Origin: Cryobacterium sp. SO1 | GTDB lineage: Bacteria > Actinomycetota > Actinomycetes > Actinomycetales > Microbacteriaceae | DNA length: 64,000 nt | NCBI RefSeq assembly: GCF_004210215.2 | Contig: NZ_CP067394.1 | Location: 2,852,001 to 2,916,000 of the forward strand | Direction of reading: 5' to 3' | Shown here: positions 44,917-62,259 of the stretch, in pieces | Position numbering within the stretch: position 1 is the stretch's first letter | Layout of the letters: each line of letters begins with the position of its first letter | Program-made: the position numbers and the translations under genes | The notes under the pieces: model-generated | Seen by the model: only the letters and a program-made list of their open reading frames with translations | Database searches by the model: none | What the model was told of the DNA's origin: nothing

Positions 44917-45001
44917 TTATGCCGACATTGTGATTATGCCGATGTTCGCCTCCGATCTCAGGTTCCTGGCGGTGAGCGGGCGAAAAAGGTCGGCATAATC
45001 A
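44911..45001 (+). repeat. RIT element left 91-bp terminal inverted repeat
   Basis: It runs from the target hexamer GTCGTG through TTATGCCGAC, a second TTATGCCGA after seven bases, and an inverted GTCGGCATAA at the inner end, where it provides the stop codon of the last recombinase. It matches the right repeat (48206-48296, inverted) at 89 of 91 positions. Confidence 0.92.
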
Positions 45002-45991
45002 CAGTGCCGCGAGGAATGTCAGAACGGCGTCCGTGGGCTGGTAACGACCCGACATCGTGACGCTGGATGGGGTGACTTTCGCGATCGCGGCTTCCTTCAA
45101 AGTCATGTCGGCGTGGAGGTAGATGTTCGTGGTGACGATCTGTTCGTGGCCGAGCCAGAGGGCGATGACGGTAGTGTCAACGCCGGCGTTGAGCAGTCGC
45201 ATCGCGGCGGTGTGCCGAAGGGTGTGCATGCTGACGTGTTTGCCAACCAGCGAGGGGCATGTCGAGGCCGCGATGGTGATGTTGTGGTGGATGCGGTGTT
45301 CGATCGCGTCGCGGCTGAGGGAATGTCCGGTGCTGCTGGTGAACAGCGGGGCGTTCGGCGGGCCTGCGTTCTCGGTGATCCAACGTGTCAGAGCCGTGAC
45401 GGTTGCCGTCAGCAGTGGGGTGCGGCGTTCTTTGCGGCCTTTACCGAGGCAATAGACGTGCGCACCCGTGCCGGTGTGAATGTCGGCGATGGTGAGGTTG
45501 AGCAACTCGCTGATGCGCAGTCCCGTCTGGATGGCGAGGGTGAATATCGCATGGTCACGGCGGCCGGTGCGGGTGTCCTGGTTGCAGGCGCCCAGTAGCG
45601 CGTCGGCTTCAGCGAGTTCCAGCCAGGTGACGGTAGTGCGGTGCGTCCGTGCCGCGGGGATCGCGAGGACGCGTTGGATGACCTCGGCATGCTCGTGGTG
45701 GCGTAGCGCCGCGAAGGCGAACAGGGAGTGGATCGCGGCCAGGCGGGTGTTGCGGGTGCGGACGCTGTTGCCGCGGCTTTCCTCCAGGTAATGGAGGAAC
45801 CCGGTGATGGCATCGGCGTCTAGGTCGCTGATGTCGATGTCCGACGGCCTTTTGCCTGTCTGGGCGCAGATATAGCCAAGTAGCAGGGTGATGGTGTCAC
45901 GGTAGGAGGCGATGGTGTTGCTGCTGGAGCGGCGTTGCGTGATTAGCCGGTCGGTGAAGAAGGCCTGCAGCAGTGGCGCGAGAGTGGTCAC
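44999..45991 (-). CDS. Tyrosine recombinase, third RIT gene
   Basis: A 330-residue integrase. It has an N-terminal SAM-like core-binding domain (residues 1-90) and a catalytic domain with Arg in QTGLRISELLNL, Lys in GKGRKERRTPL, His-x-x-Arg in MHTLRHTAAM, His in LWLGHEQ and the nucleophile Tyr in TTNIYLHAD. The start is a GTG at 45991 in a GTGA overlap with the previous gene; the stop codon lies in the left terminal repeat. It acts with the two upstream recombinases in excision and integration. The catalytic set appears complete. Confidence 0.92.
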   Translation of the reverse strand: MTTLAPLLQAFFTDRLITQRRSSSNTIASYRDTITLLLGYICAQTGKRPSDIDISDLDADAITGFLHYLEESRGNSVRTRNTRLAAIHSLFAFAALRHHEHAEVIQRVLAIPAARTHRTTVTWLELAEADALLGACNQDTRTGRRDHAIFTLAIQTGLRISELLNLTIADIHTGTGAHVYCLGKGRKERRTPLLTATVTALTRWITENAGPPNAPLFTSSTGHSLSRDAIEHRIHHNITIAASTCPSLVGKHVSMHTLRHTAAMRLLNAGVDTTVIALWLGHEQIVTTNIYLHADMTLKEAAIAKVTPSSVTMSGRYQPTDAVLTFLAAL

Positions 45992-46935
45992 GACTGCACC
46001 TGCAGCCGGAGGGTCGCGCTCTGAAGCCGGTCGGCGGCAAGGCCAAGCAGCTCGGGAACGGCGCTGATATACCAATAGGTGTCCGCGGGCCTGGAGTGGC
46101 CCAAATAGATGGACAGGGCCGGCATCTTCGCGGCGACATCGGCGCCGTTGCGATACCAGCCCAGGAGCGTGTTGACCGCGAACGTGTGTCTCAGGTCGTG
46201 CATCCGTGGTTGTCGTTCCGCGGTGCGCAGCCCCGACGCCGTGGATGCCTGGACCCAGTTGTCGCGAACGGCCGCGTATTTCAGCCGCTGACCGGCCTGA
46301 TCGGTGAAGAACGCGGCCGAGCGCACCCCAGTGTGGTCGTGCTGCTGGTCGTTGCGCCAGTGCCCGTAGCGTTCCAGGGCCGCGGTCGTGGTCGGATGCA
46401 GCGGGACCAGGCGCGGGTCTCGTCCCTTGCCCCGGCTGATCAGCAACACCCCAGCGTCCAGATCCACGTTTCTGCGATCCAGATCGATCGCCTCCCCGAC
46501 GCGCAATCCAGTCGCGGCCAGCGCGGCGAATAGCACCGAGTAGGTCTGGGCTCGGCTGCCGCCCTCCAGAGCGGTCGCGGCATGGATCACCGCCGTGATC
46601 TCCGCGGGAGAGTAGATGTAGGGGTTTTTGCGATGGAGGGGATCGGAGAAGATCCCGCGGGGCGGGACCTCGTGGATCGAATCGAGCGCGTGCATGTAAT
46701 CAGCGAAGCCGCGGACCGCCGTCATCCGCGTGGATGCTCGCGTCGCCGGCGGCGTCGTCACCCCGGCAGGCAGGACACTGGAGAAGGCGATCGCGTCGAC
46801 GATCGTGATCACCGTGATGTCGTCGTTCACAAGGTGAGCGGCGAACTGGTGGAGCAGGTGCTCGGGCCAGTGCAGGCGGGCTCCGAACTGGCGGCGCAGG
46901 CGGATGTAGTCGTCGACGTTCTCCGCCCAGGTCAT
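45988..46935 (-). CDS. Tyrosine recombinase, second RIT gene
   Basis: A 315-residue recombinase with catalytic Arg in ATGLRVGEAIDL, Lys in RGKGRDPRLVPL, His-x-x-Arg in MHDLRHTFAVN, His in YLGHSRPADTYWY and the Tyr in that same segment. Its ATG overlaps the stop of the first gene by four bases (ATGA), and its own stop overlaps the third gene. The strict four-base overlaps suggest production in fixed ratio, as expected if the three proteins work in one complex. Confidence 0.92.
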   Translation of the reverse strand: MTWAENVDDYIRLRRQFGARLHWPEHLLHQFAAHLVNDDITVITIVDAIAFSSVLPAGVTTPPATRASTRMTAVRGFADYMHALDSIHEVPPRGIFSDPLHRKNPYIYSPAEITAVIHAATALEGGSRAQTYSVLFAALAATGLRVGEAIDLDRRNVDLDAGVLLISRGKGRDPRLVPLHPTTTAALERYGHWRNDQQHDHTGVRSAAFFTDQAGQRLKYAAVRDNWVQASTASGLRTAERQPRMHDLRHTFAVNTLLGWYRNGADVAAKMPALSIYLGHSRPADTYWYISAVPELLGLAADRLQSATLRLQVQS

Positions 46936-48152
46936 GCGAGTTCACCGCCGGCCGGCCAGGGCTGGGCTAGTTGTCGCAACCGCACCACATCGACCCGGGC
47001 GTAGTTTGCTGTCGTCGCCGGATCCTCATGGCGCAGCACCTGTCCGATGCCGGCCAACGGCACTTCAGCAGCGACCATCGCTTCGGCCAGGCCATGCCGC
47101 AACTGGTGGGGCCCAAACGGCTCCAAATGCGCGCGGGTGCATGCGCGGGTCACGATCACCCAAATTGCCGGAGAACCCAGCCGGTTTCTCGGCGCGCGCA
47201 GGCCGCAGAACACTTCCCGGACGGACGCGTCCGCCGAGCGGGCGTGCATCAGATAATCGACCACCGCAGCGCCGACTTCCGCCGGCAATGGAAGGTATTC
47301 GTCTTTGGCTCCCTTGCCGCGGATGAGGACTTCACCGACGTGCCAGCGAATGTCGTCCAGTTGCATCCCGGCGACTTCCCCGGCGCGAAGGCCCAGCCTG
47401 CTTAGCAACATGATGATCGCGTATTCTCGCCGCCCCGCTGCGGTGCTCCGGTCGCAACTGTTCAGGAGGATCGCGATTTCTGCCGCGCTGGCGCCCACCG
47501 GCAGCAAGGACGGCAACGGGTTCCGGATCACCAGCGTCGCGCCAGTCAGATCACGGTCCAGTTCCCCGGTGACGAAACAGAAGCGCAAAAACGACCGCAG
47601 CGCGTAACCGAACTTCTTCACCGACGCCGGCGCCCGCCCCACGCCCTCGTCCAGCAACGCCCTCGTCACCTCGGCGCCACCAAGCGCGGTGAACCCGTCA
47701 GGCGGAACATACGCGGCCAAAAAACGCCGGATCCGCACGACATACGCCGACGTGGTTCGCGCCCCGATCCGACGCTCCCGCAACAGGTAACGCTCGAACC
47801 GCACCAGTACCACCGGATCCTCCGGCAGCGCCGCAGCTTCTGCCGCCTCCGCAGGGATCGATCCGGACAGCGCAAGCCATCTCAGCAAAGTTCGTAGGGC
47901 TCTGCGGGTGAATAACGCCGTGTGGGTCGCTTTGCGCTCGACGAGAAACGCATCAACTTGCCCCACGCTCAGATCCGCGAGGACAATCCCCTCATCCTGG
48001 AGCCAGTGGCTGAAATGTGCCAGCAAATAGAACTGGTTCACAATCGACACCGGCGTAAACCCCAGCCGCCGCAGCTCGACCTCGAATCCCTCCCGATGTT
48101 CTACCAATTGGCCCTGGACCTGCACTCGCGCCGCCGCACCTGTAACCGCCAT
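46932..48152 (-). CDS. Tyrosine recombinase, first RIT gene
   Basis: A 406-residue recombinase, the longest of the trio, with an N-terminal extension of about 110 residues before the core-binding domain. Catalytic residues: Arg in RLGLRAGEVAGM, Lys in RGKGAKDEYLPL, His-x-x-Arg in PHQLRHGLAEAM, His in VLRHEDPATTANYAR with the Tyr nucleophile. The ATG at 48152 lies 54 bp inside the right terminal repeat, so the promoter is probably within that repeat region. Confidence 0.92.
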   Translation of the reverse strand: MAVTGAAARVQVQGQLVEHREGFEVELRRLGFTPVSIVNQFYLLAHFSHWLQDEGIVLADLSVGQVDAFLVERKATHTALFTRRALRTLLRWLALSGSIPAEAAEAAALPEDPVVLVRFERYLLRERRIGARTTSAYVVRIRRFLAAYVPPDGFTALGGAEVTRALLDEGVGRAPASVKKFGYALRSFLRFCFVTGELDRDLTGATLVIRNPLPSLLPVGASAAEIAILLNSCDRSTAAGRREYAIIMLLSRLGLRAGEVAGMQLDDIRWHVGEVLIRGKGAKDEYLPLPAEVGAAVVDYLMHARSADASVREVFCGLRAPRNRLGSPAIWVIVTRACTRAHLEPFGPHQLRHGLAEAMVAAEVPLAGIGQVLRHEDPATTANYARVDVVRLRQLAQPWPAGGELA

Positions 48153-48322: not shown

Positions 48323-48920
48323 GGACATTACCGATCTGCGCTGCCCGTGGCGGGGCAAAGCGTTCAAGGCCTATTCGATCATCGACATCTACTCGCGAAA
48401 GATCATGGGCTGGCGCGTCGAGGAACGCGAGAGCGACCAGCTCGCCGTGGAGATGTTCGAGGCCGCGTTTGCATTACACGGCACCCCAGATTTCGTCCAC
48501 GCCGACAACGGCCCTGCAATGCGCTCAGATGCTCTGGCCGTGCTCCTGGTCACGCACGGCGTCACGAAGACCCACAACCGGCCCTACGTCTCCAACGACA
48601 ACCCGTTCTCCGAGTCCGAGTTCCGCACCATGAAGTACCGACCCAACTACCCCGGCACGTTCGACGATCTCCAATCCGCACGCGACCACGTGGCCAACTA
48701 CGTGCCCTGGTACAACACGAACCACCGGCACTCCGGGATCGCGTTGTTCTCGCCCCAGCAAGTCCACGACGGCACCTGGCGACACGTGCACCGCATCCGG
48801 GACCGCGCCCTCCAGCGCTACCACCACAAGCACCCCGAACGATTCCACGCCAGACCGACAACCCCGACACCAACAAACACCGTCGGCATCAACATTCGCA
48901 AAGAAACCGTCAAAATCTAA
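48323..48920 (+). pseudogene. IS3-type OrfB, C-terminal part
   Basis: 199 codons carrying the DDE integrase core: first Asp in W-D-I-T-D-L, second Asp in FVHADNGPAM, Glu in NDNPFSESEFRTMKY, then the family end YVPWYNTNHRHSGIALFSPQQVHDG. Joined to the part ending at 44916 it makes an otherwise normal OrfB. The RIT insertion separates it from its start, so it is inactive. Confidence 0.88.
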
Positions 48921-49706: not shown

Positions 49707-52613
49707 CTACGTCCCAGAAGCCCGAGTCGCAAAGTACTCGTAGAGACTTGACTCGATGGGGCTGGCAAGGGCAAGAGTCATCGAGACAACGTCAAGGTCG
49801 TGGCCGCCACTTCTAGACATGGTCGTCTGTCGAGCGTCCTGTGACATCGCTTTACCGAGGTAATAGAAATCGGTGCCTTCTGCATCGTCTTTCTTTGCGA
49901 ACACGTGAAGCGGAAGCCGATTTTCCACAATCGACTTCACTTCGGAGCTCGCGAGAGTGCGGCGGCTGCGCGTATACCAGGTCAAGGTCGATGGATTGAG
50001 GAACGCGTCTCCGTAATTCGTGCTCTCTGACACCTCATCGCCTTTGTGGTAGGTGACGAAAATGGGGCAACTGTTCGAGAAAGTGTCGACCTTATAGCCA
50101 TAGATCGTGCTCTGCTGGTTCGATTTCCAGTTGAGGAGCCGGCACACGTCCTTGCGTGAGTATCGTTGGCCGACTTCGAGCAGTCCCGTCCACTGGTATC
50201 GGTGCCGGGCCAGATATAGCCCGGTGTCCACGACATCCCGCACCTGATCGCGGAACATCGATTCTTTGTCCCATGCTTCGGAAAAGCCTTCGCCCAGGCG
50301 ATAGAATCCGTCCCGGAGGGTGACGATTGGGGAGGAACCGTACTTTGCGACATCCGCCTCCGTGAAGAATGACAGGCTCAGCAGAGCGTGCACTGAATCG
50401 AGCGTCGCCGGTTCGCTGGACAGATCGTTCTCCCCCAGCAATGCCTTGAATTCTTCAACCATCACTCCGTTCGGGGTGAACAGTAGTTCATCGAGGAGCA
50501 GAAGCTCGTGTGGGCGCTTGCCGTTCAAGAGCTCCCCCGAGAGAAAGGTCAGAATAGCGTTCTCGTAAGCGCCGGCCTCGACGTTGGCCGCCCCAACTTT
50601 GCACAGGAACCGCCAGTAGTTTTTCTGCTTTGTCGCGATGACAACCGGGTCAACCAGGTCGAAACGAGCGAAGTCGAGTAGCGCCGGCGGACGACCCAGT
50701 CGGTTCTTCAGCTCGAGGAAGGACTTCTTCAGATTGGTCATGCTGTCGAGGGTCGTGGTCGCAAGGGACGCAAAAACCCTCTCCCTCGATATCTCATCGA
50801 AGTTGACGCTTGACAGCCCTGCAATCGCGCCCGCTTCCTGGGCGTCGATGATCTTCTTACGAATTGAGTCCTTGTTCAGCGTGCTGTCGCCGAACAGCGC
50901 AATGGGGATCAGGTAGTTGTTGTCGTAATTGCCGATGAAGTCGATGACCACGAGGTGATCTTTTCCTGCAGCCTTTCGAAGTCCGCGTCCCAGTTGCTGG
51001 GTGAACACGATGCTGGAGAGAGTCTGCCGGAGCATGAGCACTTGATTCACCGACGGGATGTCGATGCCCTCGTTGAAGATGTCTACAGTCGCGATGTAGT
51101 CAAGCTCACCCCGCTCCAACATTTGCACAACCAGCTCGCGTTCTTCAACCGAGTCTGTGCCGTTTAGTGCGCGGGTGCGCAGCCGGTGTCCATGAACGTC
51201 CCGTTGGTTCAGAAGAATGACGAGCTCGGCAGCCTCAGCGTTCTTGCTGCAGAAAATCAGCCCTCGAACTGGAACGCCAGCGTGGCCGTAGCGTTCGATC
51301 GTCGACACGAGATGATCCACCCTCTCGGAGGCCACAAGCCGACGGAGCTCTGCCACTTCATCGATGACCTCGCCGTCCGCCTGAACAAAGTCGGTCACCC
51401 CGTAGTAATGGAACGGCGTCAACATGTCTGCCTCAAGGGCCTTCTGGAGACGAATCTCATATGGCACGTTGTAGTCAAAAAGCTCGAACACGTTGAAATC
51501 GTCGGTGCGCTCGGGCGTCGCGGTCATTCCGAGGAGGAAGTCCGGCTTGAGGTACTCGATCAGACGTCGGTAACTGGCGGCACCGGCACGGTGGACTTCG
51601 TCGATCAGGACATAGTCAAAGGCTTCGGGCGAGATCGCTTCGAGATTCTCTGCCCGCGTCAGCGATTGGATCGAAGCAAAGACGTAGCGGCGGTCAAGTT
51701 CTTTCTTTGACCCGACGAACTTGCCAAAGTCGCTATCCGGGGCTCCTAGTACTCGCTTGAACTCACTGATTGCACGGTCGAGGATCTGTTCACGGTGCAC
51801 AACGAACAACATCCGCTCCGGTGAATAAGCACGTACATCCAGGGCGGAGAGGATCGTCTTTCCAGTCCCTGTCGCAGAAATGACGACAGCTTTGTGCTCG
51901 CCCGCATCCCGCAGCGCAGCAATGTCAGCAAGTGCTTCAACCTGCATTGCATTCGGGAAAATCATTCCGCTCGGTGGAAGACCACCCGACGGTTCAGTCC
52001 CGCCGGGAACGGCGCGAGAACCCTGAGGTGGTGCCGCCCAGGTCAACGCATACACGTCAACCCAGGCCCGGGTGAGAGCAGCTGAAGCGTCAATATGTGC
52101 TTGAGCCGCTCGCTTCAGCTGCTGCACGATGTCACCGTCGGGAAGAGCGGAGAAGCGCAGGTTCCACTCGTGGTTCTGAAGCAGCGCGCGTTCGGTCAGG
52201 TTTGAACTGCCCACTATGGCTGTGGTGCTGGATTTCTGCTCGAAGATGTAGCCCTTGGCGTGGAAGCCTGCAGCCGAATCTGGGTGCACGTAGACGTCGA
52301 TGCCCTCTAGGTTCAGCAGCTCATGGAACGCGGCTGGTGAGTTGAATCCGAGGTAGGTGGAGGTGATGATCGTGCCGGTACCGCGAAAATCGAGGAGGGC
52401 CTGTTTGAGCATGGCGATAGCGCTCGGCGTGATGAATGCGACGGAGAACACGAATCGTTCTGAGCGCTTCAGCTCATCGCGAATGGCCCGAAGCATCGTA
52501 TTGCCGTCGGTGTTCGAGACAAGGGTGGGATTGAATAACTGATCGGCCTCGACCTGTGAATCCAGGAATCCAAACGTGTTGTCGCGGGTTAGCTGCGTGC
52601 TTGTCGAACTCAA
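49707..52613 (-). CDS. PLD-nuclease / SF2 helicase / DUF3427 protein
   Basis: A 968-residue fusion. Residues 20-190 are a phospholipase-D-type nuclease domain (H-x-K at 118-120, GSSNLT near 137). Residues 220-600 are a superfamily 2 helicase (Walker A SATGTGKT near 246, DEVH at 338, SAT-like GMTATPE, motif VI QQLGRGLRK). The C-terminal third has the DUF3427 pattern (WTGLLEVGQRYSRKDVCRLLNW, PIFVTYHKG). Start: a TTG at 52613 in a TTGA overlap with the NUDIX gene. Probably a DNA-targeting defence or repair effector. It is not the SF1 Mokosh type. Confidence 0.88.
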   Translation of the reverse strand: MSSTSTQLTRDNTFGFLDSQVEADQLFNPTLVSNTDGNTMLRAIRDELKRSERFVFSVAFITPSAIAMLKQALLDFRGTGTIITSTYLGFNSPAAFHELLNLEGIDVYVHPDSAAGFHAKGYIFEQKSSTTAIVGSSNLTERALLQNHEWNLRFSALPDGDIVQQLKRAAQAHIDASAALTRAWVDVYALTWAAPPQGSRAVPGGTEPSGGLPPSGMIFPNAMQVEALADIAALRDAGEHKAVVISATGTGKTILSALDVRAYSPERMLFVVHREQILDRAISEFKRVLGAPDSDFGKFVGSKKELDRRYVFASIQSLTRAENLEAISPEAFDYVLIDEVHRAGAASYRRLIEYLKPDFLLGMTATPERTDDFNVFELFDYNVPYEIRLQKALEADMLTPFHYYGVTDFVQADGEVIDEVAELRRLVASERVDHLVSTIERYGHAGVPVRGLIFCSKNAEAAELVILLNQRDVHGHRLRTRALNGTDSVEERELVVQMLERGELDYIATVDIFNEGIDIPSVNQVLMLRQTLSSIVFTQQLGRGLRKAAGKDHLVVIDFIGNYDNNYLIPIALFGDSTLNKDSIRKKIIDAQEAGAIAGLSSVNFDEISRERVFASLATTTLDSMTNLKKSFLELKNRLGRPPALLDFARFDLVDPVVIATKQKNYWRFLCKVGAANVEAGAYENAILTFLSGELLNGKRPHELLLLDELLFTPNGVMVEEFKALLGENDLSSEPATLDSVHALLSLSFFTEADVAKYGSSPIVTLRDGFYRLGEGFSEAWDKESMFRDQVRDVVDTGLYLARHRYQWTGLLEVGQRYSRKDVCRLLNWKSNQQSTIYGYKVDTFSNSCPIFVTYHKGDEVSESTNYGDAFLNPSTLTWYTRSRRTLASSEVKSIVENRLPLHVFAKKDDAEGTDFYYLGKAMSQDARQTTMSRSGGHDLDVVSMTLALASPIESSLYEYFATRASGT

Positions 52614-53008
52614 ACCCGAAAGTCCTTCATGACCCGTTCCACAGCAGGTACGTCAGCGGGAGCCCAATCAAGCTGGTCTAGCTCGGTGGCCTGTACCCAG
52701 CGAATTTCTGAGTGCTCGGTCAGGCGGGGTTCAGCCCCGACCAGCGAGCAGTAGTACGTCGTGAGAATCACGATCCCAAAGTCATACTCGTGCTCCGTGG
52801 TTTCGACGTGCTCGCCGATCTCTGCCGAGCAAAGCAGCTCTTCGTCCAGCTCGCGGAGCAAAGCTTGCTCGGGCGACTCGTTCTGCTCAATCTTGCCCCC
52901 CGGGAATTCCCACATGCCGGGCAGCGACATTGTAGAGCTACGACGCGCCGCAAGAATTGTCTGACCCCTGGTAAGAACAGCACCGACGACATTGATTCTC
53001 TTCTTCAC
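52610..53008 (-). CDS. NUDIX (deoxy)nucleoside triphosphate pyrophosphohydrolase
   Basis: A 132-residue MutT-like enzyme with a complete NUDIX box, GGKIEQNESPEQALLRELDE plus E-L (residues about 37-58), and the substrate-pocket start NVVGAVLTRGQTILAARR. It would hydrolyse modified or canonical dNTPs to the monophosphate. Its stop overlaps the helicase start, so both proteins are made together. This pairing recurs with DUF3427 helicases (general knowledge) and suggests nucleotide signalling or sanitation linked to the nuclease-helicase. Confidence 0.92.
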   Translation of the reverse strand: MKKRINVVGAVLTRGQTILAARRSSTMSLPGMWEFPGGKIEQNESPEQALLRELDEELLCSAEIGEHVETTEHEYDFGIVILTTYYCSLVGAEPRLTEHSEIRWVQATELDQLDWAPADVPAVERVMKDFRV

Positions 53009-53215
53009 AAGTGCACTCCGTTGCTTGGCCGTCGATGCGTAGTGTCAGCTTAGCTAGCGACGTGCTGGAGGATGCTCACCAGTTGCCTTCGAAAAAGCAC
53101 GCCAAGGATTGGGCAACCCACTCGCTCCCCCGTGGTTCTCGTACGAACGTCCGTGATGGGACCCGCTGATGCGGGAACGATTCTCGGTTCGCGGATCAGC
53201 ACCTTGGCGATTTGA

Positions 53216-53779
53216 CTAGTGCAGCTGACCTCTCCGATTCAATTCCTCGATTGCTGAAAACCGGATGTAGGTCTCTGGGTCGTTATCCGCGAGGTACTGC
53301 AGAGCCTCATCCGGCACTTTCGGGTTATCGTAGGTGAGCCGTGCTCTAACGAATTCCTTCTTGTCGCGTGCAGCATCGATAAGAATGTCAATGGGAACGT
53401 TGGTGTGGCCGACGACCATTTCGCGCACATACCTGTCACCATGCTGGAAAAGTGAGGCAAGGATCTCGACCGTTATCTCTGGTTTAGCGGCGATTGCCTG
53501 TAGGACGTAAGCCGCTTTTTTCCAATCCTCGCTGACCACTTCCATGACATAGGAGAGCGTCACCACTGAGGTGTTTTCATGTTCGACGAGCATTGTAGTC
53601 ATTGCGAGATAGTCCATCGCGAGCATGTCTGTAAATTCGGAGTCAACGTCCGCGAGTCTTGCGAAGCTGTCCAACTCCTCAGTGGTCGTTTCGTTGTTCT
53701 CGAGGAATTCTGCATACCAGTCCTCGATATTGTCGACGGTACGCGGCGCGGGTTCTCGGGGTGCACGACGTTTGATCAT
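53216..53779 (-). CDS. HEAT-like helical repeat protein, hypothetical
   Basis: A 187-residue all-helical protein. Similar 25-residue helical units recur, each ending in a short acidic turn (YVLQAIAAKPEITVEILASL, YVREMVVGHTNVPIDILIDA, FVRARLTYDNPKVPDEALQY), which resembles leucine-rich-variant or HEAT repeats used for protein or DNA binding. No catalytic motif is seen. It stands alone between two defence-type loci and is divergent from the giant helicase gene (206 bp). It may be an accessory to either, which is inference only. Confidence 0.65.
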   Translation of the reverse strand: MIKRRAPREPAPRTVDNIEDWYAEFLENNETTTEELDSFARLADVDSEFTDMLAMDYLAMTTMLVEHENTSVVTLSYVMEVVSEDWKKAAYVLQAIAAKPEITVEILASLFQHGDRYVREMVVGHTNVPIDILIDAARDKKEFVRARLTYDNPKVPDEALQYLADNDPETYIRFSAIEELNRRGQLH

Positions 53780-53985
53780 CTTGCCAAGCTACTGGAGTGG
53801 AAGCATTCACCCATGGATCCGCTCGCGAATTGCTGAACCTCCCGGTTCGAACATTTACGGCCAGCTTCCAGATCACTGGTTAAACAGCGGGCCGGTCAGC
53901 AATGTCTCTCGACTGTCCGATCGAGCCAATACACTTCGGGGGAAGACGCCGCGATGCCTTATGCCGCATTTCAAGGGGGATTTCT

Positions 53986-56900
53986 GTGAACCAGGCTGAA
54001 CACCACTCCGTTGTTGGAGATGGGCTTGCCCTACTGATCGACGGTTTGTCGCCGTTCGTAGACAAGATATTCGCAGCGGCCCTCCCACCCGAAGTGGAGT
54101 GGACGTCGATACTCGAGCGCAAGGACAATCTGGCCGGCCGCCGCGGCGGGGTCTATTCGAAGCGGGATCTCTCGCTCCTGCTGCGCGCCCTTACCGAGCG
54201 GCTGGGCGAGCTCGGGTTTCCGTTCGACCGCGAGCTTCCCCGACAGGGCCAGACCTACGCGAGTGAACTGCGAGAAGTGCGCAACCAGTGGGCGCACAAC
54301 CAGGAATTCACCGCCCAGACGGCATACCGCGCCCTCGACTCGGCCGAGCTTCTGCTCCGTATGATCGATGCCGATGCCCCGGCCGCGGAACTCGCAACGT
54401 TGAAGCAACGAGTACTTCCCGTGCGCCCGGCCGCGCCCGCTGAACCGCAAGAATCGGGTCCGCTAACCGCTCCGGTTGTGGCACCAGAAGTGCTCATCAC
54501 CGAATTCCCCCCTGAGGCCTCGGCCACAACCCCAGCATCGGCCACGATCACCATCCGTTCGTTGCCCTTCCTGAGCTGCGCGATGGCACACTGCCGAATT
54601 CCAGTCGTTGATGAAATCGTCGTGGAGAATCTGGCCGGCGAAACCCGCGGAGCCTCCCTCGAGGTAGACGTCGTGAGTGCCGAAGGCTCACTCGGCGGGC
54701 CGAAGGTGCTCCTCGTGGACCTTGGAGACAAGCAGACGACGGTCCTCCGCACCGTTGATCTCGTTCTCGATCCGGCCCGCATGCTCAGCGTTGATGAGCA
54801 GCGCCCCGGACTCATCCGCGCAACGTTGCGGAACAGTGCAGGCGTGCTTCTCGCCGAGACTTCGGTCAACGTGGAGATACTCGCCTTCAACCAGTGGGTG
54901 GCAAATCCGCTCAACCTCGGTCTCGAACTACTGGCTGCGCATGTACAACCGAATGCTGCCGTGATCGCACCGCTTCTGACCGAAGCCTCCGACCTGCTCA
55001 AAGAGCGCACTGGCAACTCCTCGCTCTCTGGCCACCAATCGGAGAGCGAGGAACGTGTCGATAACACCGTCGCCGCAATCTACGACGCGATGCGAGCCCG
55101 CGACATCCGCTATGCGGAACCGCCTGCAAGTTGGGGCTCCAAGGGTCAAAAGGTTCGCACGCCCGCCGAGGTACTGGAAGGAAGACTCGGCACCTGCCTG
55201 GACACCACGGTCACCCTTGCGGCCGCGCTGGAGCAGGCCGGCATCAACTCGACGCTGTGGACTCTGAACGACCACATCTTCATCGGCTATTGGCGCATCG
55301 ACTCATCGCTGGGTGCACCAGCGCTGACTGACGTGGCCGACATCGTTAATCTGGTCGACCTCGGCGCTATCGGACTTCTTGAAACGACTTTTGTTACCGG
55401 CGGCACCGACTCGCGTACCTTCGCCGATGCTCGGCGATACCCGCACACCAAGCACCTCGACGCCGGACTGGAGAGGTTCCTCGGGGTCACCGACATCCGC
55501 CAGGCCCGCGAGTCCGGGATCTTCCCGCTTCCCAGCCGTTCCTCGGGCGCCGACGGTGAAACCATAGTCACCGTTTACCAGCCCGGTGCCGGGCCGACCA
55601 TTGCGCCGTACTACGCGGCACCTTCGGGCGCCACCGCCGAGGGCACGGCCGTGCCCGCCCGCGTGGCCCAGTGGAAGAACGCCCTGCTCGACCTGAGCCT
55701 GCGCAACAAGCTGATCAACTACACCGATCGCTCCGGATACCCGCTCGCCGTACCGGCACCGGCTGTTGCTCGGATGGAAGACGCAATTAGCGCCGGAACC
55801 CCGATCACCCTGGTGCCCTCCGACGCCGTGCCCACCATCGACCGGGCTCGCGGCGTGCGCTATGGACGGGATCTCTCCGAGACCGCCCGGGAGCTCATGC
55901 TCGCCGACAAGAAGAGCGCCTTCATTGACATCACTGAAGCCGCGTACACGACCAAGCTGCGCTACCTCGCCAACAAGGCGAAGACGATCATGGAAGAAAC
56001 CGGCGCGAACAACCTGTACCTTGCGTTCGGGATGCTGCACTGGAGCTTCAACGACCGTGAGCTCCGTTCTCCCCTCGTGCTGGTTCCCGTCACGATGGTG
56101 ACCGCGAGCCGCGGAAACTCCTACCGGCTTACCGTGGACGAAACCGGGGCCTCCACCCCCAATTACTGTCTGCTCGAGAAGCTGCGCCTGAGCTTCAACC
56201 TCGAGATTCCGGGCCTTTCCGACCCGACCCAGGACTCCTCGGGCATCGATCTGCCGGCGGCGTTCACGGCCGTGCGCGAGGCCATCGCCAAGGCTGGGCT
56301 TCCGTTCCGGGTTGAGGAGTCCGTGGACCTGTCGATTCTGCAATTCGCCAAATTCCGGCTCTGGAAAGACCTGGACGAAAACTGGGAGATCCTGTCGCAG
56401 AACAGCCTCGTCTCCCACCTGATCAACTCCCCGCTGGAGGCCTACGCCGATCCCGTGCTGACGGCACCGAGCGTGGATCTTGATGAGCTGGGCGGGTCCG
56501 TACCGGTACCGGCGGACTCCTCCCAGCTGGAGGCCGTCGCCGAAGCTGTAGGCGGACGCACCTTCGTGCTCGAGGGCCCTCCGGGCACCGGCAAGTCGCA
56601 GACGATCACCAATCTGCTCGCCCGCTCGCTCGCGGCCGGCAAACGAGTGCTGTTCGTCGCTGAAAAACGTGCCGCCCTGGATGTGGTGAAGAAACGCCTG
56701 GAAAGCGTCGGGCTCGGTGACTTCTCCCTGGATCTGCACGACAAGGGCGCCCGACCGGCTGCCGCTCGCGCGCAGATCAAGGCGGCGCTCGACCTGCGCG
56801 TGCGGGCCGATGAAGCTGCGTTGCAGGCCAACCTCGAGGCTGCCCAGTCGAGTCGGCGCAGCCTCGCCCGGTACGCCGACCGCCTGCACGAATCCAACGC

Positions 56901-59900
56901 CGCCGGGCTCTCCCTCTACAGTGCCCGCACGCACGAACTCACCGCGGACCCGGGCATCACCGCGCTGGCGATTCCGGCTGCTCTCGTGGCCGGAAGTACA
57001 CCGGAGATCTTCACGACCCTCCGCAACGTCCTCCGCCAGCTCCCCGAGTTCTCCGATCTGGCCCGCCCGAGTGCCGCGCACCCGTGGGCGTTCCTCGACG
57101 AGCGGCCTGGCTCAACGCTGGACCCGGTCGCGATTCATGCCGCCGCACGCGAATTCGACGCTGCACTGGTCGACGCGCAGGAGGCCGGGTTCAGCCTGCA
57201 GGCACTGAGCCGGTTGGCGACTGCTGACGCGGTCAGCGGATGGCGGGATCTGGCGCGTGCGCCGCGGCATCCCTTGCCCGTGGTTGACACGCTTCACAGC
57301 GACGCCTGGCAGGCCTACCTGGCCGCGCTCGAGAGCCACCTCGCCTCGATTGTGGCGTCGACTCCGGAGTGGCGGGAGAGCGTGAAGCCAACCGTGCTCG
57401 CGCGGGACATTCCGGCCATCCATGCAGCGGCCCTTGCGGCCGATCAGGCTGGTTTCTTCGGTCGCAAGAAGAAGCGTCGAGCAGTGCTGGCGCAGCTCGG
57501 TGACGACCTCATCGTCGACACGGCCAGCGTGCCGCTCAAGACGCTCTCCACGCTCACTGCCGCGATAGCCGCCTCTCATGCCGAAGCCGTGAGCATTCGT
57601 GAAGCCGCGCTCAAACTCCCCCTCCCGCTCGTGTCGCCACAGTGGAATCCGTTCATCGCCGAACAGGCGGACGACGTCTCCGTCACCCTTACGTGGTTCG
57701 GTTGGCTCGGCGACACGCTGAGCCCTGCCGGCGACCCGCAGATGACCGATCTGCGGGAGTACTACTCGTCGACCGCCACAGGAGCTGACGCCGATCAACT
57801 CGCTCGCCTGGCCGCCGCGTGGAACCAGCTCACCACGGTGGCGTCCCTCCGGCCGGACGATGTTCAACGTTGGTCGAGCACAGACGGCTTCATCGCCGCC
57901 TGGTGGGCGACTCGTGCGCCCCGCAACCTCGACACCAGCCAGCCCGTCGTGTTGGAGCGCTGGCTCGATCTGGTGCGCCACATCGAACCGCTCCGCCGTC
58001 ACGGCCTCGACGACGCCCGTTCCGCCATTCTGGCCGGAAGCATCCCTGCCGACGATGCGGCACTCGCCTTCGACAAGGGTGTGGCCATTGCGTCGATCTC
58101 CGAACGAGAAGACGCAACCGCGCTGAACGACTTCGATATCGCCGCGCACAACAAGACCATTGGCCGCTTCACCACGAGCACCCAGGCCGTGCGCGCCGAA
58201 CTCCCCCGCGGAATACCGGCCGAGGTGCTGGCGCTGCGCCGGTTCGACACGAATCTGGCCTCCGGTCAGGTCGGCGGCCTTCGCCGGCAGCTCGACCGTC
58301 AGCGCGGCGGGATGAGCGTGCGGGCGCTCTTGGAGAACTATGGCTCCCTCATCACCCAAGTGATGCCGTGCACGCTCATGAGCCCCGAGTCCGTGGCCCG
58401 GTTCTTCCCGGCGCAATCTGACCTGTTCGACATCGTCGTGTTCGATGAGGCGTCACAGATTCGAGTGGCGGATGCCATCGGTGCGATGGGACGCGCCGCA
58501 TCCGTTGTAGTGGTGGGCGACAGCAAGCAGATGCCACCGACCAGCTTCGCTGAAGCAGGCAGCAGCATCGACGAGGAATCGGAGTCCGCCCCCGACGTCG
58601 TGGTCGACGAGGAATCAATTCTGACCGAGTGCGTGCAGGCTCGGGTGCCGAGTAAGTGGCTGTCGTGGCATTACCGCAGCCAGGACGAGTCGCTGATCGC
58701 GTTCAGTAACCACAACTACTACGAGAGCCGGTTGTCTTCCTTTCCCGCCCCGCTGCAGGGCGCCTCGCACACCGCAACAGACGGGCACGGCGTCTCCCTG
58801 GTGCGAATTGACGGTCAGTTTGAGCGGTCGGGCCGCGGCAAGACGCTGCGAACGAACCTCGCGGAGGCAACCGCTATCGTCGACGACATTCAACGCCGAT
58901 TCTGGGCGTCCCCTCACGAGTCGCCGTCGGTGGGCGTCATCACGTTCAACATGCAGCAGCGCAACCTCATTGAGAACATGTTGCGCGACTGCGACGACCA
59001 ACGTATCGCTGCCGCACTCGATGAGCCGGATGGCCTGTTCGTCAAGAACCTGGAGAACGTGCAGGGTGACGAGCGGGACAGCATCCTGTTCTCGATCGCG
59101 TTCAGTGCCAACGCGAGCGGCGTGGTGCCACTCAACTTCGGGCCGCTTTCTCGCGCGGGCGGTGAGCGACGGCTCAACGTGGCCATCACTCGCGCCCGTC
59201 GACAGGTGGTGCTGTACGCCAGCTTCGACCCGAGCGTGCTGCGCGCGCAGGACACGAGTTCGGTCGGTATCAAACACTTGAAGGCATATCTCGAGATGGC
59301 CGACAGCGGCACTGACGTAATGACAGACGACGTTCGCCGCCAGTCGATCGTCGACCACCACCGTGATGACATCGCCGCCGAGCTGCGAACCCTCGGTTTT
59401 CCGGTGCGCACGGATGTCGGGCTCTCCGACTTCCGCGTCGACATCAGCATTGCCGATCCCGCAGAGCCGGAGCGGCCTCTTGTCGCGGTACTCCTTGACG
59501 GCCCGAGTTGGCGAGCGCGGCAGACCGTGGCGGACCGGGACGGCCTGCCCATCGACGTCCTGCAGGGAATCATGCGCTGGCCCGGAATCGAACGCGTGTG
59601 GTTGCCCGAGTGGCTGCACAATCGTGAGGCGACGCTATCTCGGCTCGGCGCAGCCGTAGCTACAGCATCGGAGAAAGCACAGCAACACACCGAGGAGGTG
59701 CCGACGGCTGTTCGGACCGGTCAGTTGGCTGCCACAGTTGCGTCGGCGTCCCCGGTCTCCAGCGCGTCAGCTCGGCAGCCGGACCTCAGCATTCGGTCAG
59801 CGCCGTCGACACGACGTGCGCCCACCCGCGAGAACCCGCTCATCCACCAGTTCAGTGCGTGGGCGCCGCGTGCCCTCGGTACCGTGAGTGTGCTTGACGA

Positions 59901-60396
59901 TCTGCCCAGGCAGAACGCGGCGGGCAAAGTGCAGTCCGCGATCCGCTCCGCAGTGGCGGCGGAAGGCCCCATTCATAGCGCCCGGCTAGCGAAGCTCGTC
60001 GCCGGCGCGTTCGGTCTGGACCGGGTGAATCAAACGCGCGCGGAGGCTATTCTGCGGTGGGCCCCGGCAGAGCTGCGCCCGTCTGCGGGCGGACCATTCC
60101 TGTGGCCGGCGGATGTCGACCCAGCCGCGTGGCACTTCGTCCGTCGGGCGCCCCTGGGCGATTCACGCCAGCTCGACCATGTGCCGCTGATCGAGATCGC
60201 GAACGCGATGAGGATCGTGGCGGAGGCTGCCGCCGGTATCGAAGAAACGGAGTTGAAGAGAGAAGCGCTCTCTTTGTTCGGCAGCCGTCGTTTGACGGAC
60301 GGAATCAACGCGCGCCTCGACCTTGCGCTGGCCGCCGGAATCGAGACCGGGCGTCTCAAACGCACGAGCTCAGGAATGCTGGTAAGCGGCTTGTGA
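53986..60396 (+). CDS. HEPN(Swt1)-DUF4011-SF1 helicase-nuclease giant protein, Hhe-like
   Basis: A 2136-residue protein. Residues 1-125 are a Swt1-type HEPN domain with R-N-Q-W-A-H (Arg99, His104). About 560-640 is DUF4011 ([20 protein letters not shown]). The SF1 helicase has Walker A GPPGTGKS (864-871), DEASQ (1487-1491), QGDERD and a final VAITRAR. A Vsr/PD-(D/E)XK-like domain follows (Asp1819 in FRVD, Asp1838 in LLDG), then a DUF3320-like end. This is the layout of the Hhe (DUF4011-helicase-Vsr) antiphage protein. The GTG at 53986 has AGGGGG seven bases upstream. The nuclease shows LLDG where the family usually has E-C-D-G, so its activity is uncertain. Confidence 0.9.
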
Positions 60397-60932
60397 TTTG
60401 GACCCGCGCAGGGCTCGAGACCGAGGGTTTCGACGGGTTCGTGCCGTTCGCCGAGCTGCCCGGGACCTCTGTGCCCGCCGACCCGGGCGTCTACGTGGTG
60501 ATTCGCTCGTCGATGTCGCTGCCTGCGTTCAACGTTGAAAGCACCGCTGGCTGGTTCAAGGGCAAGGAACCATCCGTTCTCGTCGAACTTCTGCAAGCAG
60601 CGTGGGTACCGGATGCCGTCGTGCTCTACATCGGGAAGGCGAGCGCCGGCGCGACCGGCCGACGCGGACTGCGCAAGCGACTGGACGAATATCGTCGGCA
60701 CGGAGCAGGAGAGCGTGTGGGCCACTGGGGCGGCCGATACCTCTGGCAGCTCGAGGACAGCGACCACCTGCTCGTCGCCTGGAAGAAGACTCCGGATGCT
60801 GAGGCCGAGAACCTGGAATCCGCGCTGATTGGTGACTTCGTGGCGCACTACGGCGTTCGTCCGTTTGCCAACCGCAAGGCTGGGCGATCGATCGATGACA
60901 GTGTCGAGAAGAACGGTCGGGCGCTGGAGTAA
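60393..60932 (+). CDS. GIY-YIG nuclease domain protein coupled to the giant helicase
   Basis: A 179-residue protein with GIY-YIG features: G-V-Y near residue 30 ([11 protein letters not shown]), Y-I-G in VVLYIGKAS near 77, Arg in [11 protein letters not shown] near 92, and Glu plus Asn in [12 protein letters not shown] and PFANRKAG. All catalytic positions are present. It starts with a GTG inside the helicase stop (GTGA overlap), so it is made with Hhe and probably belongs to the same system. It could cleave invading DNA or act as a ligand-sensing or structural partner. It ends 66 bp before a convergent gene. Confidence 0.8.
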
Positions 60933-60998
60933 GCCTTCCTGGGGAGCCATTCGAAGCCAGGCACGATGTGAGTTCTTGCTGGCGACATCACCAGCGAT

Positions 60999-62259
60999 TC
61001 AGGCGCGCTCGAGCAGGGAGCTCAGTCCCGCTTCGCTCACGACCGGGATGCCATAGTCCCGGGCCTTCCGCGCCTTACCCGACAGGGAGTCGGGGTCAGC
61101 GGCCACGAGCAGCCGGGATTTCTTGGTCACTCCGGCGCCCGGCCCGAATCCCGGGTGGGTGAGCTCGGCGTGCCAATCGGCGCGCGGACGCTGCATTTCG
61201 CCCGTCAAGACCACGATGTCCCCTGCCGTCAGCATGAAGCGTGCCAGCGCGTCGTCGGAGACCGCGACCACGGCGACCAGCTGGGGCGGGTGCATCGCCG
61301 TGGCGACGGCCGAGGCAGGAAGTCCCAGGAGCTGCGCAACCGTGATCAGGTCAGCGATTTCTCCTTCGGTCAACACTGCGTCAGCCCAGGCGAGGGCTAC
61401 GAGGTCGGCGAAGTAGCGCTCGTGCAGAGCCACGCAGGTGCCGCGGTTGATGCCAAGGTCTTCAGCGAGCTGCACGAGCGCCAGCGCTTCATGGGACGAG
61501 AGCTCCCTTGTCCAACAGGCACAGGTCGAGGAGCGCAAGATAGTCCAGTTGCTCGTCCGGGCCAGCGAATTCTGGCATCTTCAGGGTGATGCGGTCCAGC
61601 CAGGATGCAGGGGTGATGGGGCCGGCCGGCAGGACGTCGTCGCGGGACACCCACACCGCAGGGTCGCCCGGGAAGGGTGGCCATGGGGACGCTGCCGCTG
61701 CGTCCAAATGCAGCGCCCAGACCGGCGCATCCGGGTCGTCGGCAATGTACGCGCCCAGCAGGTGCACGGTGGCAACGGCATCGGCGAGAGCGCGGTGGGC
61801 GTCGACCAGAGGGATGTCGTACGCCGCGCAACAGTCGGACAACTTGCGGCCAGAGCCCGGGAGGAAGTCGCGGGCGAGCTGCATCGTGCACAGCCCAAGG
61901 GGTTCCAGGTCGCCGCCGTAAGCGAGCCGACTCAGTTCTGCCAACAGGAAGCTCGTGTCGAAGCGAGCGTTGTGCGCCACCAGCACGCGCCCGGAGAGAA
62001 GTTCGATCAGTTGCGGCGCGACGTGCGCGAAGTCCGGTGCCTGCATGATGTCGGCGGCGCGGATGCGGTGGATGTCCTGCCTGCCCAGATCTCGGCCCGG
62101 ATTGATCAGCGTGTCCCAGCTGCCGGTGATGCGACCACTTGGATCGACGTGGACAACGGCCACCTCGATAACCCGGTGGCTCGACTTGGCGAAGAGGCCG
62201 GTGGTTTCGAAGTCGATGACCGCGTAGCCCCTGGCGCTCGAATCAAGGCTGTGCGACAT
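60999..62259 (-). pseudogene. DnaQ-like 3'-5' exonuclease with BRCT domain, frameshifted
   Basis: Residues 1-170 of the first frame (62259-61489) are a DEDDh exonuclease (IDFETTG, AHNARFDTSFLL, DAHRALADA). The second frame (61514-60999) continues with a helical TerB-like part and a C-terminal BRCT domain (VVLTGEMQRPR, VTKKSRLLVAADPDSLSGKARKA). The frames join at L-L-D / R-E-L-S-S-H-E if one T is removed at 61508-61509. The total length, 1261 bp, is three times 420 plus one, as expected for a single-base insertion. This is either a real inactivating mutation or a sequencing error. The exonuclease half alone would still be made. Confidence 0.82.

Follow-up and report, generated by a model that had tools for sequence, protein, structure and literature searches.

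A ProA-family giant helicase gene overlapping a GIY-YIG nuclease gene at a variable site in Cryobacterium

Introduction

MTES_1575, from Microbacterium testaceum, a member of the same bacterial family as the host studied here, is the reference for a type of giant multidomain protein. Together with a Brachybacterium protein, it was described in 2013 with an architecture that combines HEPN, transglutaminase-like, SF1 helicase, Vsr REase and wHTH parts (PMC3710099). The passages of that paper dealing with these proteins propose that the wHTH part recognises invading DNA and that HEPN acts as a suicide RNase upon failure of the DNase. Two NCBIfam models cover comparable proteins, NF058533 for the anti-phage protein ProA and NF042953 for Hhe, while the passage concerned in PMC12409345 gives, with PD-T4-3, a precedent for defence by a lone GIY-YIG gene.

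The window, a stretch of 64,000 nucleotides from Cryobacterium sp. SO1 (contig NZ_CP067394.1), contains a giant helicase gene overlapping a GIY-YIG nuclease gene (Table 1). A first-pass annotation regarded the pair as an Hhe-like system with two nuclease folds and an HEPN domain in a combination not described before. The architecture of the giant protein has in fact been in print since 2013 in the passages cited above, and all the parts named there are found here, the transglutaminase-like domain falling below the Pfam cut-off but retaining its Cys and His. No pair of a DUF4011/ProA gene and a GIY-YIG gene was found among the open-access PMC papers listed, as judged by titles, openings of abstracts and selected passages.

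Table 1. Features of the proA and GIY-YIG locus, in window positions.
Feature	Position	Strand	Remarks
Segment with HEAT-repeat-like gene (weak match), proA and GIY-YIG	53059..61011	.	Absent at the same site in G422 (L258)
proA-family gene	53986..60396	+	2136 aa, GTG start, TGA stop; NF058533 1758 bits, PDC-S37 901 bits
Swt1-like HEPN domain	54022..54369	+	aa 13-128; PF18731 E 3.6e-25; RX4H = R99/H104; optional in family
Transglutaminase-like domain	55063..55305	+	~aa 360-440; C404 and H430; Pfam E 0.068, below cut-off
DUF4011	55684..56184	+	aa 567-733; Pfam E 2.1e-34
SF1 helicase	56515..59214	+	aa 844-1743; GPPGTGKS 864, FDEASQ 1486, NVAITRAR 1731
Vsr-like REase domain (MTES_1575)	59365..59655	+	aa 1794-1890; L1836, R1843 vs Glu, His in two more distant relatives
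C-terminal wHTH region / DUF3320	59896..60393	+	aa 1971-2136
GIY-YIG nuclease gene	60393..60932	+	179 aa, GTG start 60393-60395
GTGA start/stop overlap	60393..60396	+	Same in L198
Exonuclease-BRCT gene	60999-62259	convergent to GIY-YIG	RNase_T and C-terminal part (BRCT by eye); two frames

Results

Architecture and family of the giant protein

The open reading frame and the Pfam families over their cut-offs (HEPN_Swt1, DUF4011, AAA_11, AAA_12 and MTES_1575, a Vsr-type REase) bear out the earlier description of a 2136-residue HEPN-DUF4011-SF1-Vsr protein. On inspection, the open frame extends 5' to an ATG at 53902; the sequence upstream of the GTG at 53986 is AAGGGGGA, and the homologue L098 aligns with the giant protein from residue 1. 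The transglutaminase-like domain, which the passages in PMC3710099 name for such giant proteins, the C-terminal wHTH/DUF3320 part and a changed REase site were absent from the first-pass annotation. The locus differs from the published proteins in two respects: the main text of that paper does not contain the term GIY-YIG, and it treats Vsr as a DNase, whereas here two site residues are unlike those of more distant relatives. HEPN is optional in the ProA family, tblastn detecting it in 16 of 35 other loci (34 fetched loci and L198), and the RX4H pattern is present in 76 of the 85 homologues of at least 2090 aa among the matches listed.

The giant protein scores 1758 bits against NF058533, over the cut-off of 1500, with an alignment spanning model positions 2-1903 of 1903; it differs from the ProA model in having an HEPN domain upstream of the model part and a GIY-YIG gene downstream. 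Its helicase and REase regions also align with the Hhe model, but the score of 578 bits falls short of that model's cut-off (2000), and PADLOC gives 901 bits for the candidate family PDC-S37 (aa 556-2128; a model without a stated cut-off) and 383 bits for Hhe. The likeness to Hhe thus stands, while the NCBIfam class is ProA. NF058534, considered as a possible ProB model, is a different family (HyoA) and has no match here. No paper defining "ProA" was found among the open-access PMC papers listed, and DefenseFinder "Prometheus" is named in papers without description in the passages concerned; that ProA equals Prometheus is a guess from the name. Relatives of the C-terminal part of the giant protein comprise at least 903 proteins at E <= 0.001 (7985 candidates scored).

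The same genome carries a second ProA-family gene, L104 (G000:C1:1191649-1197042), lacking the C-terminal wHTH part and adjoining a gene that by eye is ribosomal protein S15-like; 11 other Cryobacterium genomes have over-cut-off matches with the coverage end of L104 (~model position 1720).

The Vsr-like REase site

Relative to the comparison set, which consists of L225 and L227, L1836 and R1843 replace the Glu and His of an ExDG..YH stretch, residues for which we infer a catalytic role. Close ProA homologues carry Leu at the position of this Glu, which is missing in 119 of 119 scorable sequences, and the His of the two more distant relatives is mostly missing from them as well. Because of these replacements, DNase activity of the ProA Vsr-like domain appears doubtful. 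L225 and L227 were considered as Hhe-like proteins and rejected as such: both lie below the ProA and Hhe cut-offs, with ProA scores (1164 and 753 bits) exceeding those for Hhe (835 and 596 bits). The matches listed for the ProA C-terminus include I-Bth0305I and 3hrl, with Vsr itself not among them. Of the two nuclease folds and HEPN claimed for the locus, the Vsr-type and GIY-YIG folds are confirmed; since the Vsr-like domain is without two residues of these two more distant relatives, however, two folds may mean one working DNase.

The GIY-YIG protein and its family

The protein encoded downstream, whose GTG start overlaps the proA stop as described earlier, has GIY, YIG, Arg, Glu and Asn in the order of the GIY-YIG superfamily, and the fold as well. 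G32, Y34, Y79, G81, R96, E139, E142 and N160 are invariant in an alignment of 24 sequences and are taken by us to be the catalytic positions, in agreement with the full catalytic set claimed earlier. Fold and motif order are shared with the UvrC GIY-YIG domain and R.Eco29kI, but identity in structural alignments is 26-28% and 14-17%, respectively, and the protein stays below all Pfam and NCBIfam cut-offs (GIY_YIG_2: 11.9 bits against a gathering score of 22.4). Unlike PD-T4-3, the protein has no PADLOC match at E 0.01, and a PDB sequence search returned chance-like matches only.

The family comprises 1429 proteins at E 0.001, distributed patchily over hosts from Actinomycetota to Bacteroidales. 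Relatives occur in 26 plasmid records, none of them among the 40 of 321 ProA-like plasmids listed, and in one of 50,697 phage records. Across 89 distinct loci, the commonest neighbour family occurs in 15 and an Mrr-like protein (by eye) in 5. This commonest neighbour, of ~300 aa and by eye WYL-regulator-like, is found in Bacteroidales-type records including L135, L142, L151 and L177, and lies on the GIY-YIG strand in all 12 of the 15 loci listed. G441 (L199, L200; G441:C19:30386-51184) holds four GIY-YIG copies, one of them broken, and a further piece within ~21 kb; the copies are 88-94% identical in DNA over roughly the gene, lie amid unrelated genes and have short repeats of other kinds between them.

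Adjacency of ProA and GIY-YIG genes

Adjacency was assessed in three genome samples with thresholds of E <= 1e-100 for ProA-family matches and E <= 1e-8 for GIY-YIG, at which less similar GIY-YIG genes were possibly missed. The family sample (398 genomes) contained 51 genomes with a ProA-family match (27 over cut-off), 38 with GIY-YIG and 3 with both, against 4.9 expected by independence; the genes touch in one, the window. In the genus sample (57 genomes), the corresponding numbers are 19 (16 over cut-off), 7 and 5, against 2.3 expected, with 2 touching, and in the phylum sample (396 genomes) they are 25 (7 over cut-off), 6 and 2, against 0.4 expected, with one touching, again the window. Genome sharing therefore exceeds expectation in two of three samples, genus and phylum, while adjacency is nearly nil. 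After merging, 91 genomes have a ProA-family match (46 over cut-off), 49 have GIY-YIG, and the two touch in 2. A neighbourhood conserved enough to define a two-gene system is not seen: the search for homologues followed by the GIY-YIG gene, proposed in the first-pass annotation, finds it absent next to nearly all of them, the outcome which that annotation had itself named as refuting its reading, and the gene is not a general component of the system.

Locus-level searches agree with these counts. By tblastn, the GIY-YIG gene is present in the window and L198 and in none of 34 fetched ProA-family loci (L086-L105, L221-L228, L231-L236; L236 with less than 0.5 kb downstream). Conversely, a ProA-like gene occurs in 2 of 100 GIY-YIG loci (89 distinct), neither touching (L163, ~1.4 kb away; L106, ~2.4-2.9 kb away), and a coding-like same-strand ORF ends within 40 nt upstream of GIY-YIG in 9 of 87 loci. 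Where both genes share a contig at larger distance, they are ~11-15 kb apart in G398 and G404 and ~55 kb apart in G452.

A second pair and an empty site

The second touching pair lies in another Cryobacterium genome, G432 (L198), whose GIY-YIG is 83% identical and whose GTGA overlap is the same. Its DNA is 87% identical to the window from 54467 to 60916; ProA there is frameshifted, its coding sequence lying in two frames, and has no HEPN part, GIY-YIG is intact, and an extra gene, DUF262-like by eye, separates GIY-YIG from the exonuclease gene. Comparison of the two genomes by the Nei-Gojobori method gives dN/dS values of 0.27 (GIY-YIG) and 0.08-0.09 (ProA), which place GIY-YIG under purifying selection, though less constrained than ProA. 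With the overlap kept across a dS of 0.35-0.55 and this dN/dS, the gene is not simply decaying.

In a third Cryobacterium, G422, the exonuclease gene, which carries an internal stop, is followed after ~155 nt by NUDIX and type IV REase genes, and the 8-kb segment is missing, so the proA-GIY-YIG pair is best regarded as accessory cargo at a variable site. No target-site repeats were seen at the segment ends, and a scan of 53700-61100 gave 1 promoter-like signal against 0.7 in shuffles and 3 terminator-like signals against 4.0.

Elsewhere in the window, a type IV methyl-directed REase gene (PADLOC mREase_IV, 765 bits) overlaps a NUDIX gene at 49707-53008, a pair kept in G422. Three adjacent tyrosine recombinase genes with overlapping ends occupy 44999-48152 on the minus strand, beside a transposase fragment at 48405-48920; the trio presumably resembles a recombinase-in-trio element.

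The exonuclease-BRCT neighbour

The convergent gene lying 66 nt beyond GIY-YIG in the window encodes a DEDDh exonuclease (RNase_T) whose C-terminus is BRCT-like; it is split into two frames in the window and uninterrupted in G432 and G401. Nine of the sampled genomes, from 7 genera, have it next to proA (G000, G432, G132, G323, G259, G257, G214, G357, G384; loci L017, L018, L025-L028, L035, L096, L097, L102, L103, L198 and the window), on the proA strand in 6 of the 9. By loci, it stands beside proA in 6 of 36 with wide flanks and 7 of 45 with 1.5-kb flanks, the genomes being partly shared. A single stop-free frame (2774 aa in G257 and 2771 aa in G214, both of one genus) spans exonuclease, BRCT, HEPN and ProA, although an ATG just 5' of HEPN could give ProA a separate start. 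The exonuclease-BRCT protein is a candidate ProA partner, and a hotspot could account for the nearness as well: the exonuclease family is present in 36 of 57 genus genomes, and its gene also lies beside GIY-YIG in G282 (L077) and G441. At L077 it stands directly 3' of GIY-YIG on the same strand, with no ProA in the fetched stretch.

Discussion

The locus is likely to represent a known ProA-family (MTES_1575-type) defence protein with an accessory GIY-YIG neighbour at a variable defence site. This interpretation is favoured because NF058533 is passed, adjacency is limited to 2 of 91 genomes, tblastn finds the gene in 0 of 34 loci, and G422 lacks the segment; the kept overlap, the dN/dS of 0.27 and the excess genome sharing in the genus and phylum samples count against it, as does the changed REase site, which would give a reason for an outside nuclease. 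Judging from the domains and the available passages of PMC3710099, ProA, as an SF1 helicase, would probably engage foreign DNA via its helicase and wHTH parts, and HEPN-bearing members, including the window protein, would respond mainly through the HEPN ribonuclease, RNA cleavage stopping the infected cell. GIY-YIG would form a nuclease family of its own, as a rule not accompanied by ProA, with a member that came to lie downstream of proA in one Cryobacterium lineage; the two genes are probably co-translated there, and the GIY-YIG protein most likely acts on DNA as an independent nuclease. What we infer here is that ProA senses DNA, that HEPN is the effector, that GIY-YIG cuts DNA alone and that no obligate partnership exists.

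A two-gene variant, in which ProA recognises and unwinds invading DNA, the co-translated GIY-YIG protein cuts it and HEPN serves as back-up suicide RNase, is improbable. The identical overlap in two genomes, the intact motifs under purifying selection and the universal lack of the REase-site Glu in scorable close homologues all fit it; the pair nevertheless touches in so few genomes, the same REase site occurs in ProA proteins without a GIY-YIG gene, the second genome keeps an intact GIY-YIG beside a frameshifted, HEPN-less ProA, and the exonuclease-BRCT gene is the commoner neighbour. GIY-YIG as the cutting subunit of ProA is accordingly possible, its distribution being unfavourable. Least probable is a mobile, homing-like or dispersing GIY-YIG gene for which the proA overlap is one landing among many: the copies and fragment among unrelated genes in G441, the patchy spread over such distant hosts and the plasmid records suggest mobility, but those copies, with other short repeats between them, could be segmental duplications, no insertion-site signature was found at the segment, and the fold is like that of UvrC and type II REases. 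A further account, likewise unlikely, makes ProA a helicase sensor with a chemically dead REase, acting via HEPN or outside nucleases, often the DEDDh exonuclease-BRCT protein and here also a GIY-YIG protein captured by translational coupling; if true, the window would capture a defence system of one gene in the course of becoming multi-gene.

Under the preferred interpretation of an accessory neighbour, the proA-GIY-YIG pair probably reflects a local gene neighbourhood rather than a new two-part defence system of wide occurrence, a striking gene overlap not being the same as a conserved system. The filing of the giant protein is corrected from Hhe to ProA, and a large family of GIY-YIG proteins, with 1429 members at E 0.001, emerges that the Pfam, NCBIfam and PADLOC models miss here. 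For the ProA family as a whole, the Vsr-like domain may not cut DNA, which puts the effector of these giant proteins in question; the exonuclease-BRCT protein is a candidate partner.
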